This document shows positions 36,876 through 43,274 of a stretch of 61,328 bases of DNA, in pieces. The translations under genes were made by a program, and so were the position numbers. Under the pieces are notes generated by a model. It had not been told where the DNA came from. It made no database searches and saw only the letters and a program-made list of their open reading frames with translations. Numbering within the stretch: the stretch's first letter is position 1; every line of letters starts with the position of its first letter. This DNA is from a virus. The stretch is taken from IMG/VR virus record IMGVR_UViG_3300002161_000007, positions 1 through 61,328 of that record; one strand, written 5' to 3'.

Positions 36876-37145
36876 TTACCACTTAACCTTGTCAGCCCAA
36901 TAAGCGGCAGACATCTTGCCTTTAGAGATGTTCTTAGCGTGACGTGCTTTAAATGAAGCGTTACGTGCAGAACCATCAGGTGAACCTTTAACGCCCTGTT
37001 GACCAAAGCGAATCGTCTTAACTTGATCGCCTTCTTTAGCAACAACAACATGTGACTTGGTTGGGTGATCAGGTGTTGCTTTTGGTTTATTAAAACCAGA
37101 TACACCTGCACGTGTAAGTCGTGGGTCTTTCTTACTCTCAGCCAT
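36876..37145 (-). CDS. Basic conserved phage protein (DUF6321-like), leftward
   Basis: An 89-residue product on the minus strand. It has KKDPRLTRAGVSGFNKPK, then VKTIRFGQQGVKGS, then FKARHAKNISKGKMSAAYWA and ends DKVKW. This pattern is a small basic family common in marine and freshwater phages and matches DUF6321-type proteins. Its start overlaps the stop of the gene upstream (TAATG). It is one of only two leftward genes and converges stop-to-stop with 36054-36875. It probably binds nucleic acid; function is unknown. Confidence 0.8.
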   Translation of the reverse strand: MAESKKDPRLTRAGVSGFNKPKATPDHPTKSHVVVAKEGDQVKTIRFGQQGVKGSPDGSARNASFKARHAKNISKGKMSAAYWADKVKW

Positions 37146-37510: not shown

Positions 37511-37996
37511 ATGGCAAAGAACAACCGACTGAGTGGCCCCTTTTTACCAGTCCCAAGATGGGTGTTGCCATACATTGCAACTGACTATGTATCCCATGCA
37601 GTACTGAACCACTTCCTTCAGTACCTCCACCCTGATACCCAGGAACTGACGACGTCCTACCAGCACATTGCTGACCAAATGGGTTGTGATCGCCGTACGG
37701 TTATGCGCTCAATAAAACGACTTGAGGAAATTGGTTTGATCGTCAAACAGCACCGTGTCACTAGGTCAAATAAGAACCTGACGAATAGTTACTATGTCAA
37801 TTTTAACAATCCACTAGTGTCACACGAGTCACCCCTAGTGGTGACACTGGAGACACTAGGTAGTGTCACCACAGACACCACTAGTAGTGTCTCCCGTGAC
37901 ACCCAATCAAGAGTATCTATCAAGAGTAAGAAAATCAAGAAGAGGGAAATTTTAACAAAAGTGGATCAGAGGTTGGTGGATGAAGAAACAATTTGA
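37511..37996 (+). CDS. Winged-helix replication initiator-like protein
   Basis: A 161-residue protein. Residues 20-85 form a winged helix-turn-helix (TSYQHIADQMGCDRRTVMRS, IKRLEEIGLIVKQHRVT), the layout of phage initiator proteins and RepA/DnaD-like N-terminal domains. Residues 103-131 are a Ser/Thr/Val low-complexity stretch and 132-150 are Lys-rich. DNA encoding 103-150 holds repeats listed separately. It is first in the replication operon, upstream of helicase loader, helicase and primase. The lambda O protein has the same organisation. Initiator function is inferred from domain and context. Confidence 0.7.
   Translation: MAKNNRLSGPFLPVPRWVLPYIATDYVSHAVLNHFLQYLHPDTQELTTSYQHIADQMGCDRRTVMRSIKRLEEIGLIVKQHRVTRSNKNLTNSYYVNFNNPLVSHESPLVVTLETLGSVTTDTTSSVSRDTQSRVSIKSKKIKKREILTKVDQRLVDEETI
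37755..37940 (+). repeat. Iteron-like repeats and AT-rich direct repeats inside the initiator gene (putative origin)
   Basis: The heptamer GTGTCAC or its complement occurs at 37755-37761, 37817-37823, 37841-37847 (complement), 37863-37869 and 37896-37902 (complement). Shorter GTGTC/GACAC copies lie at 37852-37856, 37874-37878 and 37887-37891. Palindromes include GACACTA-GG-TAGTGTC (37852-37867) and an 18-base imperfect one at 37874-37891. Directly after, ATCAAGAGTA occurs at 37906-37915 and 37919-37928 and ATCAAGA at 37934-37940, in an AT-rich purine-biased run. Protein-binding iterons followed by unwinding repeats is the lambda-type origin layout. Confidence 0.65.
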
Positions 37997-38381
37997 CGAC
38001 TGGGGAACTGGTTTAGGCGAAGACCCCGATAGAAAAGAACCAGCCCCAAAACAGATGCGCCAAGATTCCCGAGGCTCTCTAGTTCATTTCTTTCGTGACA
38101 GTTTGCCAACCGAGAACCTGATGAGAATCACCGCCCCTGTAAATGGTCCCGCCATGATGAAAGGGTTTAAGAAACTTACAGACAAAGGCTTTACAAACGA
38201 ACAGATTCGTGAGATGATCTTGGACTTCGTTAAGGAGATCACACGCCGACCATTGCCAATAGAAGTGGCACCATGGAGAGCGTTCCTTGCGAATTTAGAT
38301 AAATACGCAAAACAGCAAAGGATGACTAACGATGTTGAACCAACAACAACCTCCATTGACCCCCGTCTCATCGGAGAATAA
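37980..38381 (+). CDS. Hypothetical replication-block protein
   Basis: A 133-residue product overlapping the initiator gene by 17 bases. The first 35 residues are polar and Pro-rich; residues 38-120 are helical (VHFFRDSLPTENLMRITAPV, GFKKLTDKGFTNEQIREMIL, FVKEITRRPLPIEVAPWRAF). Its place between initiator and helicase loader suggests a primosome accessory role. No motif is diagnostic. Confidence 0.6.
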   Translation: MKKQFDDWGTGLGEDPDRKEPAPKQMRQDSRGSLVHFFRDSLPTENLMRITAPVNGPAMMKGFKKLTDKGFTNEQIREMILDFVKEITRRPLPIEVAPWRAFLANLDKYAKQQRMTNDVEPTTTSIDPRLIGE

Positions 38382-38512: not shown

Positions 38513-39145
38513 ATGACTGACTGGAAGAGTAATAAGTACTGGCGCAACCGTCCAGTAGAAGAGCGAGTGCGCAACCTACGTGTTCCACCTCGCTATAAGA
38601 CTTGCACGTTTGAGAACTATGACGAAGAGGAAGGTTCTCCAGCATTCAAAAGTGCTGTAGAGAAATGGTCTACAAGCATTGACAAGCGCATGGAAGATGG
38701 AATGGGTTTGTACATTTACGGTAAGACTGGTCTTGGTAAAACTCACATGGCAGTTTCTGCACTTAACCAGATCATCTCAACAAAGCAATTAAGTGGACTG
38801 TTCTTGTCTTATGACATATTCACTGAGATGGTTCATGACTCTCGCAACAATGACGGTGAACTGCCAGAGATGTACGGCGATCCAAATCTACTTAAGTACA
38901 TGCGACGTGTTTATGACATCGTTGTAATTGACAACTTGAACGCCGACCGCTTAACTGAGTACATGGCAAAGACGGTGTCAAACATGATTGAGTCTCGCTA
39001 CGAGATGCAATTGCCAACAATCTTTACAACTGAGATTATTCCTGACAAACTTCCAGCGATCTACAGTCCACGAGTTCACTCCATCATTAAGCAGTCATGC
39101 TTCATGGTTGGTGTAACTGGTGAAGACTACAGAACGAGGGATTAA
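38513..39145 (+). CDS. DnaC-like AAA+ helicase loader
   Basis: A 210-residue protein from ATG 38513; the frame is open upstream to 38405, but that overlaps the zinc-finger gene. Walker A is GKTGLGKT (residues 70-77) and Walker B is DIVVIDNLN with Asn after the first Asp. LPTIFTTEI and SIIKQSCFMVGV fit sensor regions of DnaC/IstB-type ATPases. It would load the DnaB-like helicase encoded two genes later onto the origin. An arginine finger lies near YSPRVHSI. Family assignment is solid. Confidence 0.85.
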   Translation: MTDWKSNKYWRNRPVEERVRNLRVPPRYKTCTFENYDEEEGSPAFKSAVEKWSTSIDKRMEDGMGLYIYGKTGLGKTHMAVSALNQIISTKQLSGLFLSYDIFTEMVHDSRNNDGELPEMYGDPNLLKYMRRVYDIVVIDNLNADRLTEYMAKTVSNMIESRYEMQLPTIFTTEIIPDKLPAIYSPRVHSIIKQSCFMVGVTGEDYRTRD

Positions 39146-39585
39146 TGCTCGGTAACGATATTCAGTCTTACGACTACATCGGATTCGGAGTGGTGTTTGA
39201 AGACCTTCTTGCTACACCACCTGTAAAATTAAAAGCACTAGGTGCATCGTTGTATCAGGCACGCAACAATTGGAACCGTGTCATTGAACAATGGAAGCCA
39301 AACGACATGCCATTGAAAGCGCTGTACGACACAACCAATCGGTTGGGCATAGGAGCAGAAGTATTTACTTTCTTACATCCTGATGCTGTGCCTGCAATTG
39401 AACAATTCTTATTTCGCAAAGATATTTCTGTTCCCGTTCTTTACTACAAAGCGGTAGAAGATTTGGAATATGACTTGCGTTTCAAGCGAGCAATTCGTAC
39501 AATCTTCGTTCCGCACAAAGAACAAGCCTCAGTGCTTGGGATGCGTGCAACAGTCACACCTCCTACTAGCGCTTGGGTTCTCTAA
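39145..39585 (+). CDS. Hypothetical protein between helicase loader and helicase
   Basis: A 146-residue product coupled on both sides. The C-terminal half has DLRFKRAIRTIFVPHKEQAS and the N-terminal half is alpha/beta (YIGFGVVFEDLLATPPVKLK). The layout faintly resembles a degenerate HAD-like fold (as does 56825-57307), but the usual catalytic residues are not clear. It appears to be a replication-block accessory. Not recognised. Confidence 0.6.
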   Translation: MLGNDIQSYDYIGFGVVFEDLLATPPVKLKALGASLYQARNNWNRVIEQWKPNDMPLKALYDTTNRLGIGAEVFTFLHPDAVPAIEQFLFRKDISVPVLYYKAVEDLEYDLRFKRAIRTIFVPHKEQASVLGMRATVTPPTSAWVL

Positions 39586-40841
39586 TGGCATCAACTGAAC
39601 ATCTCTTAATCAGTAAGGTAATCCAAACCTCAGACCTCAGCGAAGTCATTGATGCAGGTATTCGCCCCGAGCACTTCAGCGGTGAGTGGTCTGACATCTG
39701 GCTATGGGTTCTTAACTACTGGCGTGAATACAGCACTATTCCAACGGCTCGTGCGTTTAAACAAGAGTACGCAGATGTTCGTTTGCTCAACGCAGAGAAT
39801 GAACCATTCCAGGCGCTCATTGATGAGATCTACATTGCCTACAAACAACAGCACTTGGTGCAAGCAATTACATCTGCACTACCAGCACTGAACAACAACG
39901 AGACAGAAGAAGCATTCAACAAACTGTCAGAAGGTTTACAAAAAGCATCAGTAGAGGTTGCACGACTACGAGACGTTGACCTCACGCAATCGTGGGAAGG
40001 ACGGTTAGCAAAATATGAAGAAATGCGTAACACCCCGAACGGTCTACGTGGCATTCCGACAGGCTTCTTGGGTCTTGATCGGATCACTGCTGGTCTTCGG
40101 CCTCAGCAGTTGGTTACGTTCGTTGGTGAAGCAAAAAAAGGTAAATCATTAATGACCTTGATCATGGCTGATGCGGCTCACAACCACGGCATCACGCCAA
40201 TGTATGTTTCATTTGAAATGAGTATTGAAGAACAAGCGGCTCGTTATGACGCCATCATCTCAGGTATTCCTCATACACGGATCATCCGAGGTGATTTGAC
40301 TGCAAGTGACATGGAGAAATTAAGCAAGGCACTTAGTATCCGTAAGAACATGCAACCATTCATCATGACAGAAGATGCGCACTCATTAACTACAGTAAGC
40401 GCACTTGCTGGAAAAGTACAACAGCACCGACCACGCTTGCTCATCGTTGACGGTGTGTATTTGATGGACGATGAAAACGGAGAACCAAAAGGTTCACCTC
40501 AAGCACTGACAAATATCACACGAGCATTAAAGAGGTTGGCACAGCGCTTTGATATCCCTATCATCGGAACTACGCAGGTGCTGTCGTGGAAACTTGGTAA
40601 CAAGAAGTCACGTCAAATTACTGCGGAAGCAATCGGATATACCTCATCATTTGCACAAGACTCAGACCTTGTGTTGGGCGTTGAGTCAGACCCCGATGTA
40701 GACAACCAAGCAATCATCAGAGTAATTTTGTCCCGCTCATCCCCAAAGGGAGAAGTAAGAATCAAATGGGATTGGGACACAATGAATTTCACGGAGGTAG
40801 ACGAAAATGACACAGGCGATCATGACAACTGGTACTACTGA
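39585..40841 (+). CDS. DnaB-like replicative helicase
   Basis: A 418-residue protein starting at the ATG overlapping the previous stop; in-frame ATG 39573 is inside the upstream gene. The N-terminal part (LLISKVIQTSDLSEVIDAGI, then RPEHFSGEWSDIWLWV) resembles the DnaB N-terminal domain. RecA-like ATPase motifs are GEAKKGKS (181-188), PMYVSFEMSIEEQAARYDAI, LLIVDGVYLM and IIGTTQ. The C-terminus ends LSRSSPKGEVRIKWDWDTMN. It unwinds DNA at the fork with the loader at 38513 and the primase that overlaps its 3' end. Confidence 0.9.
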   Translation: MASTEHLLISKVIQTSDLSEVIDAGIRPEHFSGEWSDIWLWVLNYWREYSTIPTARAFKQEYADVRLLNAENEPFQALIDEIYIAYKQQHLVQAITSALPALNNNETEEAFNKLSEGLQKASVEVARLRDVDLTQSWEGRLAKYEEMRNTPNGLRGIPTGFLGLDRITAGLRPQQLVTFVGEAKKGKSLMTLIMADAAHNHGITPMYVSFEMSIEEQAARYDAIISGIPHTRIIRGDLTASDMEKLSKALSIRKNMQPFIMTEDAHSLTTVSALAGKVQQHRPRLLIVDGVYLMDDENGEPKGSPQALTNITRALKRLAQRFDIPIIGTTQVLSWKLGNKKSRQITAEAIGYTSSFAQDSDLVLGVESDPDVDNQAIIRVILSRSSPKGEVRIKWDWDTMNFTEVDENDTGDHDNWYY

Positions 40842-41730
40842 TCTCTACAGCGTTCTTTTAGAACTTGGCGTAGATGTACGCCGAACAAATGGACGAGAGA
40901 TTTCAGGATGCTGTCCAGTACACGAGAAGCGCACGGGTCGTGCAGATGGTTCTCCATCATGGTCAATGAACTCAGAAACAGGTCTATGGATCTGTCATTC
41001 ATGCGGTGGTAAAGGAACCCTTGCCTCGCTCGTATCTGAACTCACAGGTAACCCTGACAGCGTCTCTGCTGTTAATCAGTTGCTGATTGAGACAGGCATC
41101 AACCGTCTCACCGCCCCAGAACGTGTTGAGTACAAGCCAGAGGTTGACTGGGTGTCATACAGTCGCTATGAGAACCCACCATTACATGAGATCGTTAAGC
41201 GCAACCTAGATCCTGATGTCGCACTAGCGCACGGAGTTAAGTGGAACGTGCGTAAACATGCATGGGTCATTCCTATTGTTTCCCCACTCGGAGAACTTAT
41301 GGGCTGGCAGGAAAAAGGTCCTGATTATTTCAACAATGAACCTGCGGGTGTTAAGAAGAGCAACACTCTTTTTGGCATTGAGCGTTTTCAGTCACGCACT
41401 GCTGTCCTTGTTGAATCACCGCTGGACGTGGTGAGGTTTGCATCTGCATTCGGGGGCATGCAAGCACTCGCCACGTTTGGCGCTCATGTAAGCAAAGAAC
41501 AAATCAACATATTGGTGAGTGTTGCAGATCGTGTGATAATCGCAATGGATCACGATAAAGCAGGAACTGAATCAGCAAAGACTTTGTTCAAGACACTCCC
41601 ACGCTTCCGCAGTGGTATCTTTTGGTTAGATTATTCACGGACAGATGCAAAAGATATTGGCGATATGACAGACGATGAAGTAAGTTATGCAATAGGTAAT
41701 GCGTCTGTGTTGCCATGGTGGATGACGTGA
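40807..41730 (+). CDS. DnaG-like primase
   Basis: A 307-residue protein. Zinc-binding residues are C36, H39, C63 and C66 (GCCPVHEK, WICHSCGG). The TOPRIM catalytic residues are E203 (LVESPLD) and D248/D250 (AMDHDKAG). It makes RNA primers for replication. It overlaps the helicase gene by 35 bases; an ATG at 40822 is a plausible alternative start. It is shorter than bacterial DnaG because it lacks the helicase-interaction domain. Confidence 0.88.
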   Translation: MTQAIMTTGTTDLYSVLLELGVDVRRTNGREISGCCPVHEKRTGRADGSPSWSMNSETGLWICHSCGGKGTLASLVSELTGNPDSVSAVNQLLIETGINRLTAPERVEYKPEVDWVSYSRYENPPLHEIVKRNLDPDVALAHGVKWNVRKHAWVIPIVSPLGELMGWQEKGPDYFNNEPAGVKKSNTLFGIERFQSRTAVLVESPLDVVRFASAFGGMQALATFGAHVSKEQINILVSVADRVIIAMDHDKAGTESAKTLFKTLPRFRSGIFWLDYSRTDAKDIGDMTDDEVSYAIGNASVLPWWMT

Positions 41731-43274
41731 CCTTTAAGGGCGAACTGTACCCGTTCCAACAAGAAGCCATGGAGCGCATGAGCGACCGTGGTCAGATGTT
41801 GCTTGCCATGGTGATGGGTGCTGGAAAGACACCAACCACTCTTTCAACGCTAGAGCACTTGTTTGATAACAAAGAGATTGATCGTGTTGCCATTGTCGTA
41901 CCATCATCATTGAAGTTCCAGTGGCTTCGTGAAATCAAGAAGTTCACAGACTCTAAAGCAATTGTTATTGATGGCTCTAAAGCGGCTCGTGCAAACCTTT
42001 GGCGCATGGCACGTATGTGCAAGTACGTCATTGTCAACCCTGAGATGTTGGTTAATGATGAGAAAGAGTTCTTGGCGCTGAAGTGCAACGCCATGGTGAT
42101 TGACGAAGCAACCATCATTAAGTCACCAAAAGCAAAACGTTCCAAGTTACTTAAGCGCCTTGGTTCCAAGTGCCACTATCGCTTTGCATTAACAGGTCAG
42201 CCAATTGAAAACAAGCCAGAAGAACTGTTTTCTATTATGGAGTTTGTTGACAAGACAGTGCTTGGTCGCTTTGACATCTTTGACCGCACCTTCATCCAGC
42301 GTGACCACTTTGGTAAGCCAGTTCGCTATCGCAACCTAAAGAGCCTGCAAGAAAGCCTGACCGAGGTAATGGTACGCAAGACCCGTGCCGACATCGCTGA
42401 CCAACTTCCTAAAGTTGTGCACCAACTCATCCCAGTTGTATTTGATACTGCTGGTGCTAATGCATACCGTGCAATTACTAAAGACCTTGTAAAGGAGATA
42501 CAAAACGCCATTAGTCAACACGGACGTGGTTTTGATCTGTGGTCTCATTACAACGGGGGAGACAAGGGTGGTGAGGCACAAGGGCAGATTATGTCCCGCC
42601 TCACCATTCTTCGTATGCTCTGTGACAACCCAGCGCTTGTGTATGAATCTGCCCAAAACTACCGAACCACTGGTGGCTCCACAGGAAGTCTCTATGCAGA
42701 CAACATCATCAAACTAGGTTGGTTGAGTGAGACAGCAAAGTCACCAAAGTTAGAGTCGGTTATGGAATACATCAAGAACATCCTTGACAGTGATACGACC
42801 AGCAAGGTTGTTCTCTTTTCATTCTTTAAACGAAACCTTAAACTCATACAAGAGGCTATGGCGTCAACCACCAACAGCGTGCTGTTCATGGGCGGTATGA
42901 CCGCCGAAGAGCGAGACGCCGCCAAACAACAGTTTGCTACTGACCCGCATACCCGCCTGTTCCTATCGTCAGACGCTGGTGGCTACGGCGTGGACTTGCC
43001 CAACGCCAACTACCTCATCTCTTATGACCTGCCATGGAGCGCTGGAAAACTGGATCAGCGGGAAGCCCGAATCATTAGGTTGTCTTCAGTACACCCCCAT
43101 GTTACAGTTGCATCCTTCGTTATGAAGGGATCAATTGAGGAACGTCAATACGAAATGCTTCAACAGAAGCGGGGTATTAACGAAGCCTTTATTGATGGCA
43201 ACTACGACAGTCAGGGAAAGTACGAATTAACGATTGGTACCTTGTCTGACTTTTTATCAAACTCGGAGGTATAA
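41715..43274 (+). CDS. SNF2-type (SF2) DNA helicase/translocase
   Basis: A 519-residue protein with ordered SF2 motifs: LYPFQQEAMERM (motif Q-like), MGAGKTPT (residues 34-41), DEAT-type motif II at D130/E131 (VIDEAT), LTGQPIENK (motif III), and the C-terminal LFLSSDAGGYGVDLPNANYL and DQREARIIRL (motifs V and VI). These define the SNF2/RAD54-like class. It probably remodels or translocates on dsDNA during replication or recombination. It overlaps the primase gene by 16 bases. Confidence 0.87.
   Translation: MVDDVTFKGELYPFQQEAMERMSDRGQMLLAMVMGAGKTPTTLSTLEHLFDNKEIDRVAIVVPSSLKFQWLREIKKFTDSKAIVIDGSKAARANLWRMARMCKYVIVNPEMLVNDEKEFLALKCNAMVIDEATIIKSPKAKRSKLLKRLGSKCHYRFALTGQPIENKPEELFSIMEFVDKTVLGRFDIFDRTFIQRDHFGKPVRYRNLKSLQESLTEVMVRKTRADIADQLPKVVHQLIPVVFDTAGANAYRAITKDLVKEIQNAISQHGRGFDLWSHYNGGDKGGEAQGQIMSRLTILRMLCDNPALVYESAQNYRTTGGSTGSLYADNIIKLGWLSETAKSPKLESVMEYIKNILDSDTTSKVVLFSFFKRNLKLIQEAMASTTNSVLFMGGMTAEERDAAKQQFATDPHTRLFLSSDAGGYGVDLPNANYLISYDLPWSAGKLDQREARIIRLSSVHPHVTVASFVMKGSIEERQYEMLQQKRGINEAFIDGNYDSQGKYELTIGTLSDFLSNSEV

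Follow-up and report, generated by a model that had tools for sequence, protein, structure and literature searches.

The window analysed here is the first 61 kb (61,328 nucleotides) of a virus record of 75,020 bp, and it carries a block of replication genes in the order gene 1, gene 2, DnaC-like loader, 146-residue protein, DnaB, primase and SNF2 helicase (Table 1). The 146-residue protein is present in many of the loci that we read and has neither a Pfam nor a PHROG match. The virus also encodes a WhiB protein (PF02467, E 1e-13), an indicator gene for actinophages (PMC10202952), and a tail sheath (PF17482, E 6e-8). These two genes support its assignment, proposed in the preliminary description of this DNA, to the contractile actinophages, whose hosts here are presumably freshwater actinobacteria. 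When we scanned about 85,000 genomes of bacteria and archaea, no relative of the gene 1 initiator turned up, and the scan therefore gives no prophage or host link.

Upstream of the block, an 89-residue open reading frame belongs to a phage family of unknown function and also matched, weakly, a minor head or pilot protein. Roseobacter, Lentibacter and Celeribacter phages match it at 73 to 82% DNA identity over 97 to 137 bp, and the hosts presumed for those phages are unrelated to those presumed for this virus.

Table 1. Features of the putative replication locus (positions in the window)
Feature	Position	Strand	Basis or remark
89-aa open reading frame	36876-37145	-	PHROG_7595, E 2e-36
Gene 1, O-like initiator, 161 aa	37511-37996	+	ORF; PHROG, HTH_36, AF2, Foldseek
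Predicted winged-helix DNA-binding domain, residues 27-96	37589-37798	+	AF2 secondary structure
Iteron 1, GTGTCACACGAGTCAC	37817-37832
Iteron 2, GTGACACTGGAGACAC	37841-37856
Iteron 3, GTGTCACCACAGACAC	37863-37878
Iteron 4, GTGTCTCCCGTGACAC	37887-37902		followed by CCAA nearly everywhere
A-rich, purine-rich candidate unwinding element	37903-37965		stability; low pS at codons 131-140
C-terminal motif VDQRL of gene 1	37961-37975	+
Gene 2, 133 aa, helical	37980-38381	+	ORF; homologues; AF2
C-terminal motif IDPRL of gene 2	38355-38369	+
DnaC-like helicase loader	38513-39145	+	PHROG_50, E 2e-34
146-aa protein	39145-39585		between loader and DnaB
DnaB-like replicative helicase	39585-40841	+	PF03796, E 5e-30; PHROG_19, E 1e-61
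DNA primase	40807-41730	+	PHROG_47, E 1e-38
SNF2-type helicase	41715-43274	+	PF00176, E 3e-34

The earlier reading of gene 1 as a winged-helix replication initiator is borne out by its matches and by the loader, helicase and primase genes that follow it. The phage families that it matches best comprise replication initiators (PHROG_270, E 7e-14; the O-like PHROG_391, E 7e-13), and all 15 of the aligned gene 1 relatives match the replication-initiation families PHROG 270, 391 or 8102. The N-terminal part matches HTH_36 (E 2e-8), a winged helix, in the position expected of a lambda O-type initiator. The AF2 model, of modest confidence (mean pLDDT 61), shows a helix-turn-helix with wing strands and places the recognition helix at residues 61 to 74. 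Foldseek matches among viral proteins are mostly helix-turn-helix proteins and replication initiators, and a search of solved structures by sequence gave weak top scores, to helix-turn-helix proteins or unrelated enzymes. Residues 104 to 152 have pLDDT values below 50, which is consistent with the iteron-coded part of the protein being a disordered, flexible linker.

A dyad array conserved at the DNA level

The sequence GTGTCAC occurs at 37755, 37817 and 37863 and GTGACAC at 37841 and 37896, together with the pentamers GACAC (37852 and 37874) and GTGTC (37887); all of these motifs, like the AT-rich direct repeats downstream, are where the preliminary description had placed them. Five copies of the heptamer in 155 bp is the highest count of any 7-mer in the window. 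When this protein was recoded synonymously 20,000 times, none of the sequences reached five heptamers (mean, 0.55) and one reached eight pentamers, so that the cluster cannot be ascribed to chance. Its composition needs amending in two respects. The copy at 37755 reads GTGTGAC, GTGTTAC or GTGTAAC in relatives, or is absent, and this comparison excludes it from the array. In addition, a half-site, GTCAC at 37828, had been overlooked. The GTGTC and GACAC elements are real, but they are better described as arms of dyads lying in two reading frames than as loose heptamers: the repeat unit is a 16-bp dyad, GTG[TA]C-N6-G[AT]CAC (GTGWC-N6-GWCAC), present in four copies within gene 1 at a spacing of 24/22/24 bp. 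The array lies 300 to 390 bp into the gene, which stops about 30 codons beyond it. Across seven virus records of 61 to 97 kb we found no other dyad cluster, only scattered single copies.

Directly after the fourth iteron begins a low-stability element that contains short direct repeats (ATCAAGAGTA at 37906 and 37919, ATCAAGA at 37934). The least stable 60-mer between 36 and 40 kb starts at 37904, which bears out the AT-rich stretch noted there before, and the 60-mer at 37906 is among the 0.7% least stable of the window. The purine fraction of this A-rich stretch lies at the 99.7th percentile.

Twenty-seven relatives were fetched first, and later sets came from profile and DNA-signature searches, which together yielded more than 60 distinct array-bearing genes (61 in the final set). 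Searching viral contigs with the DNA signature alone returned 90 stretches with at least three dyads, 59 of them distinct and almost all in O-like genes. The array keeps its place even in relatives whose proteins are only about 36% identical. All clade A relatives have four dyads at 24/22/24; more distant clades have four or five in the same position, even where the half-site has changed. Over the whole set, spacing falls into the classes 24/22/24, 22/24/24, 30/23/25 and a few others. Loss of the repeats under a conserved protein, which had been named in advance as evidence against an origin, was thus not seen.

Selection on the DNA rather than the peptide, suspected from the low-complexity translation, is supported by the silent sites. 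The iteron codons of 14 clade A genes have a synonymous difference, pS, of 0.107, as against 0.53 for both the remainder of gene 1 and gene 2, and 0.59 for the loader, so that silent-site conservation over the repeats is about 5-fold that elsewhere; in gene 2 and the loader, pS is at least 0.44 in every 29-codon window. Over codons 131 to 140, in the A-rich element, clade A pS drops to 0.022. Moreover, the 22-bp step puts iterons 1 and 2 in a different reading frame from iterons 3 and 4 in most clades, so that the peptide is not a repeat and the DNA, not the peptide, must be what is under selection. The variants VTLE, VSME and VTVE are amino acid changes that all preserve GTG.C......GACAC. A different reading, in which the repeats are a side effect of selection for a Ser/Thr-rich peptide, fits the low complexity and expected disorder of the stretch, but it is refuted by the silent-site suppression and the two reading frames, along with the recoding test and the dyads kept through amino acid changes, and we give it practically no weight.

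Some individual loci deserve mention. Comparison of L025 with L024, both of clade B, reveals the loss of one iteron, 18 nt in frame (five versus four copies). One contig (L008) is essentially identical to the L010 type up to a switch at positions 1338 to 1405 and to the L007 type beyond it. The switch falls within the iterons and the beginning of the A-rich element; either the origin recombined in nature or the contig is an artefact of chimeric assembly. Four unrelated initiators (L115, L123, L187 and L136), each encoded by a single gene to which the C-terminal part is fused, have the same iteron signature, which suggests convergence or transfer of the origin.

Half-site classes and the second gene

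In both arms of most dyads, GTGWC is replaced by GTAGY (GTAGC or GTAGT) in one group of relatives and by GTATC in one further gene, with the geometry unchanged. Residues 60 and 62, which lie within or next to the predicted recognition helix, separate the half-site classes. In the 61-gene set, GTGWC goes with R or S at residue 62, GTAGY with T and GTATC with I, an association confounded by kinship since all nine GTAGY sequences belong to a single group. Eight columns within residues 9 to 101 set the GTAGY group apart, and these two are the ones at the predicted recognition helix. We offer residues 60 and 62 as candidate specificity residues, a prediction from the alignment. One gene (L274, starting at 281) has three asymmetric iterons, GTAGC-N6-GACAC, whose left and right arms differ, and another (L243) has one; the iterons of L274 could represent an intermediate between two origin specificities.

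Gene 2 is read in the +1 frame relative to gene 1, with which it shares 17 nt, and a homologue lies downstream of gene 1, usually overlapping it, in 69 of 82 loci. Its AF2 model is helical (pLDDT 75). The two proteins share a C-terminal end, [IV]DxRL, found in no other open reading frame of the window; a looser form of it recurs across clades in 51 of 56 distinct gene 1 proteins and 37 of 46 gene 2 proteins, and it could be a shared docking peptide. With 161 and 133 residues, the pair approaches the 299 residues of lambda O. Searches with gene 2 gave no Pfam match, a best PHROG match to an unknown family (E 0.003), no confident structural match (best Foldseek PDB hit, E 1.2), and in VIA a Z of at most 6.7 for a common helical arrangement. 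Against a viral structure library its matches are weak (E 0.2 to 1) and include replisome organizers and helix-turn-helix initiators; a few of them also match gene 1, which is suggestive only. Aligned to lambda O with hhalign, neither gene gave a significant score. The separate gene and the shared C-terminal end suggest, and do not prove, a split O protein with gene 2 as candidate C-terminal half. We put forward tentatively, at somewhat less than even odds, a two-protein initiator in which gene 1 would bind DNA and gene 2 recruit the loader, the common end would dock a shared partner, and iterons and recognition helix would drift together. If this drift does pass through asymmetric intermediates, the switching of origin specificity would be visible in nature.

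Comparison with known origins and alternative explanations

In phage lambda, a dimer of O binds each iteron, a flexible linker joins the domains of the protein, and the resulting O-some puts strain on the AT-rich region next to it (PMC6022878; PMC7466680). The lambda record J02459 annotates four 18-bp iterons inside O at a spacing of 20/24/23, reminiscent of our four 16-bp dyads at about two helical turns, likewise in the middle of the gene of an initiator with an N-terminal DNA-binding domain. Further likenesses are the AT-rich, low-stability element directly downstream of iteron 4, the flexible linker (here predicted) encoded by the iterons, and in-frame variation in iteron number, with six in Stx phages (PMC7466680) and four or five here. 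The differences lie in the proteins and in the sequence of the sites. The initiator is only 161 residues long and its helical part is a separate gene in most relatives, whereas lambda O carries its loader-binding domain in the same polypeptide; the partners are a DnaC-like loader with phage DnaB and primase, where lambda uses P and the host DnaB; the iteron sequences are unrelated; and neither direct homology to lambda O (by hhalign) nor a P-type partner was found.

Other precedents exist. In SPP1, gene 38, which encodes the initiator gp38, contains the direct repeats and AT-rich element of oriL, and the phage supplies a loader and a DnaB-type helicase (PMC6316719). This Gram-positive system resembles ours in having the origin repeats and AT-rich element within the initiator gene and a phage-coded loader and helicase, but SPP1 has a second origin, oriR, and we see a single dyad cluster. 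The winged helix of gene 1 also matches, weakly, PHROG_186 (E 3e-6) of the DnaD-like initiators of Firmicutes phages. O-like genes of phages ZF40 (Pectobacterium), BUCT708 (Stenotrophomonas) and PseuP_222 (Pseudomonas) have clustered inverted motifs right after the winged helix; they differ in encoding single proteins of 257 to 328 residues with other repeats, and the similarity, 36 to 41%, is confined to that domain. For cluster A mycobacteriophages, whose RepA is also an actinophage initiator, the authors suggest a possible origin within repA, as in lambda, and found no repeats in the region adjoining it (PMC7157519). Since position, number, spacing, dyad symmetry and AT-rich side all match lambda, and SPP1 and the O-like genes provide precedents, the plan itself is already known.

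The proposal that the locus follows the lambda O/ori plan is therefore well supported, and we consider it very probably a phage replication origin. That the dyads are binding sites of the encoded gene 1 protein seems to us nearly certain, as a judgement and not a computed value. In the 75-kb record and three relatives of 95 to 97 kb, GC skew did not consistently turn at this locus, either at a minimum or at a maximum, which is weak evidence against an origin because the skew is small.

Alternatively, the dyads could be operators through which gene 1 autoregulates the replication operon, with replication starting elsewhere. Winged-helix proteins are often repressors, gene 1 has MarR- and GntR-like matches besides HTH_36, and dyads are a typical operator form. 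Nevertheless, the sites lie far inside the gene with no promoter-like site at the dyads, they come in four or five copies at a fixed step of about 23 bp with a conserved low-stability element adjoining, and every one of the 15 members tested belongs to replication-initiation families, all of which makes operators a very improbable explanation. Repeat arrays also occur at ParB and terminase sites, and the dyads might serve in partition or packaging and lie in the initiator gene by coincidence. We find this very improbable, since the array almost always sits in an O-like gene and changes of half-site track the predicted recognition helix; among the checked proteins of the replication block, ParA or ParB was not identified. 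In mRNA, each dyad could also fold into a small stem a little way ahead of gene 2, which overlaps gene 1, and such hairpins might control the translation of gene 2. This is hardly credible: the fourth arm position is A-A or T-T in 8 of 37 distinct iterons, an independent choice of A or T that would break an RNA stem and that fits a degenerate DNA half-site, some relatives retain the dyads with gene 2 as far as 561 nt downstream, and the initiators whose C-terminal part is fused within a single gene have the same signature.

For the origin, we infer the following sequence of events. Each 16-bp dyad is probably occupied by a dimer of the gene 1 winged-helix protein, with one recognition helix per GTGWC half-site; the coupled changes of half-site and helix support this indirectly. 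Four dimers at steps of about 23 bp would build an O-some-like complex that strains and opens the adjacent A-rich element. The phage DnaC-like loader and DnaB would then deliver the helicase, a step for which gene 2 is probably the half of the initiator that forms the bridge, before the phage primase starts synthesis.

A probable origin is thereby placed to the base in a widespread, uncultured and presumably freshwater group of actinobacterial phages, and its signature, the last dyad followed by CCAAnnAAGA, picks out the origin of dozens of further contigs. With over 60 distinct iteron and initiator pairs available from nature, origin recognition and its evolution become open to direct testing. 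In these phages the split initiator may separate DNA binding from helicase loading, two functions that lambda O combines in one chain.
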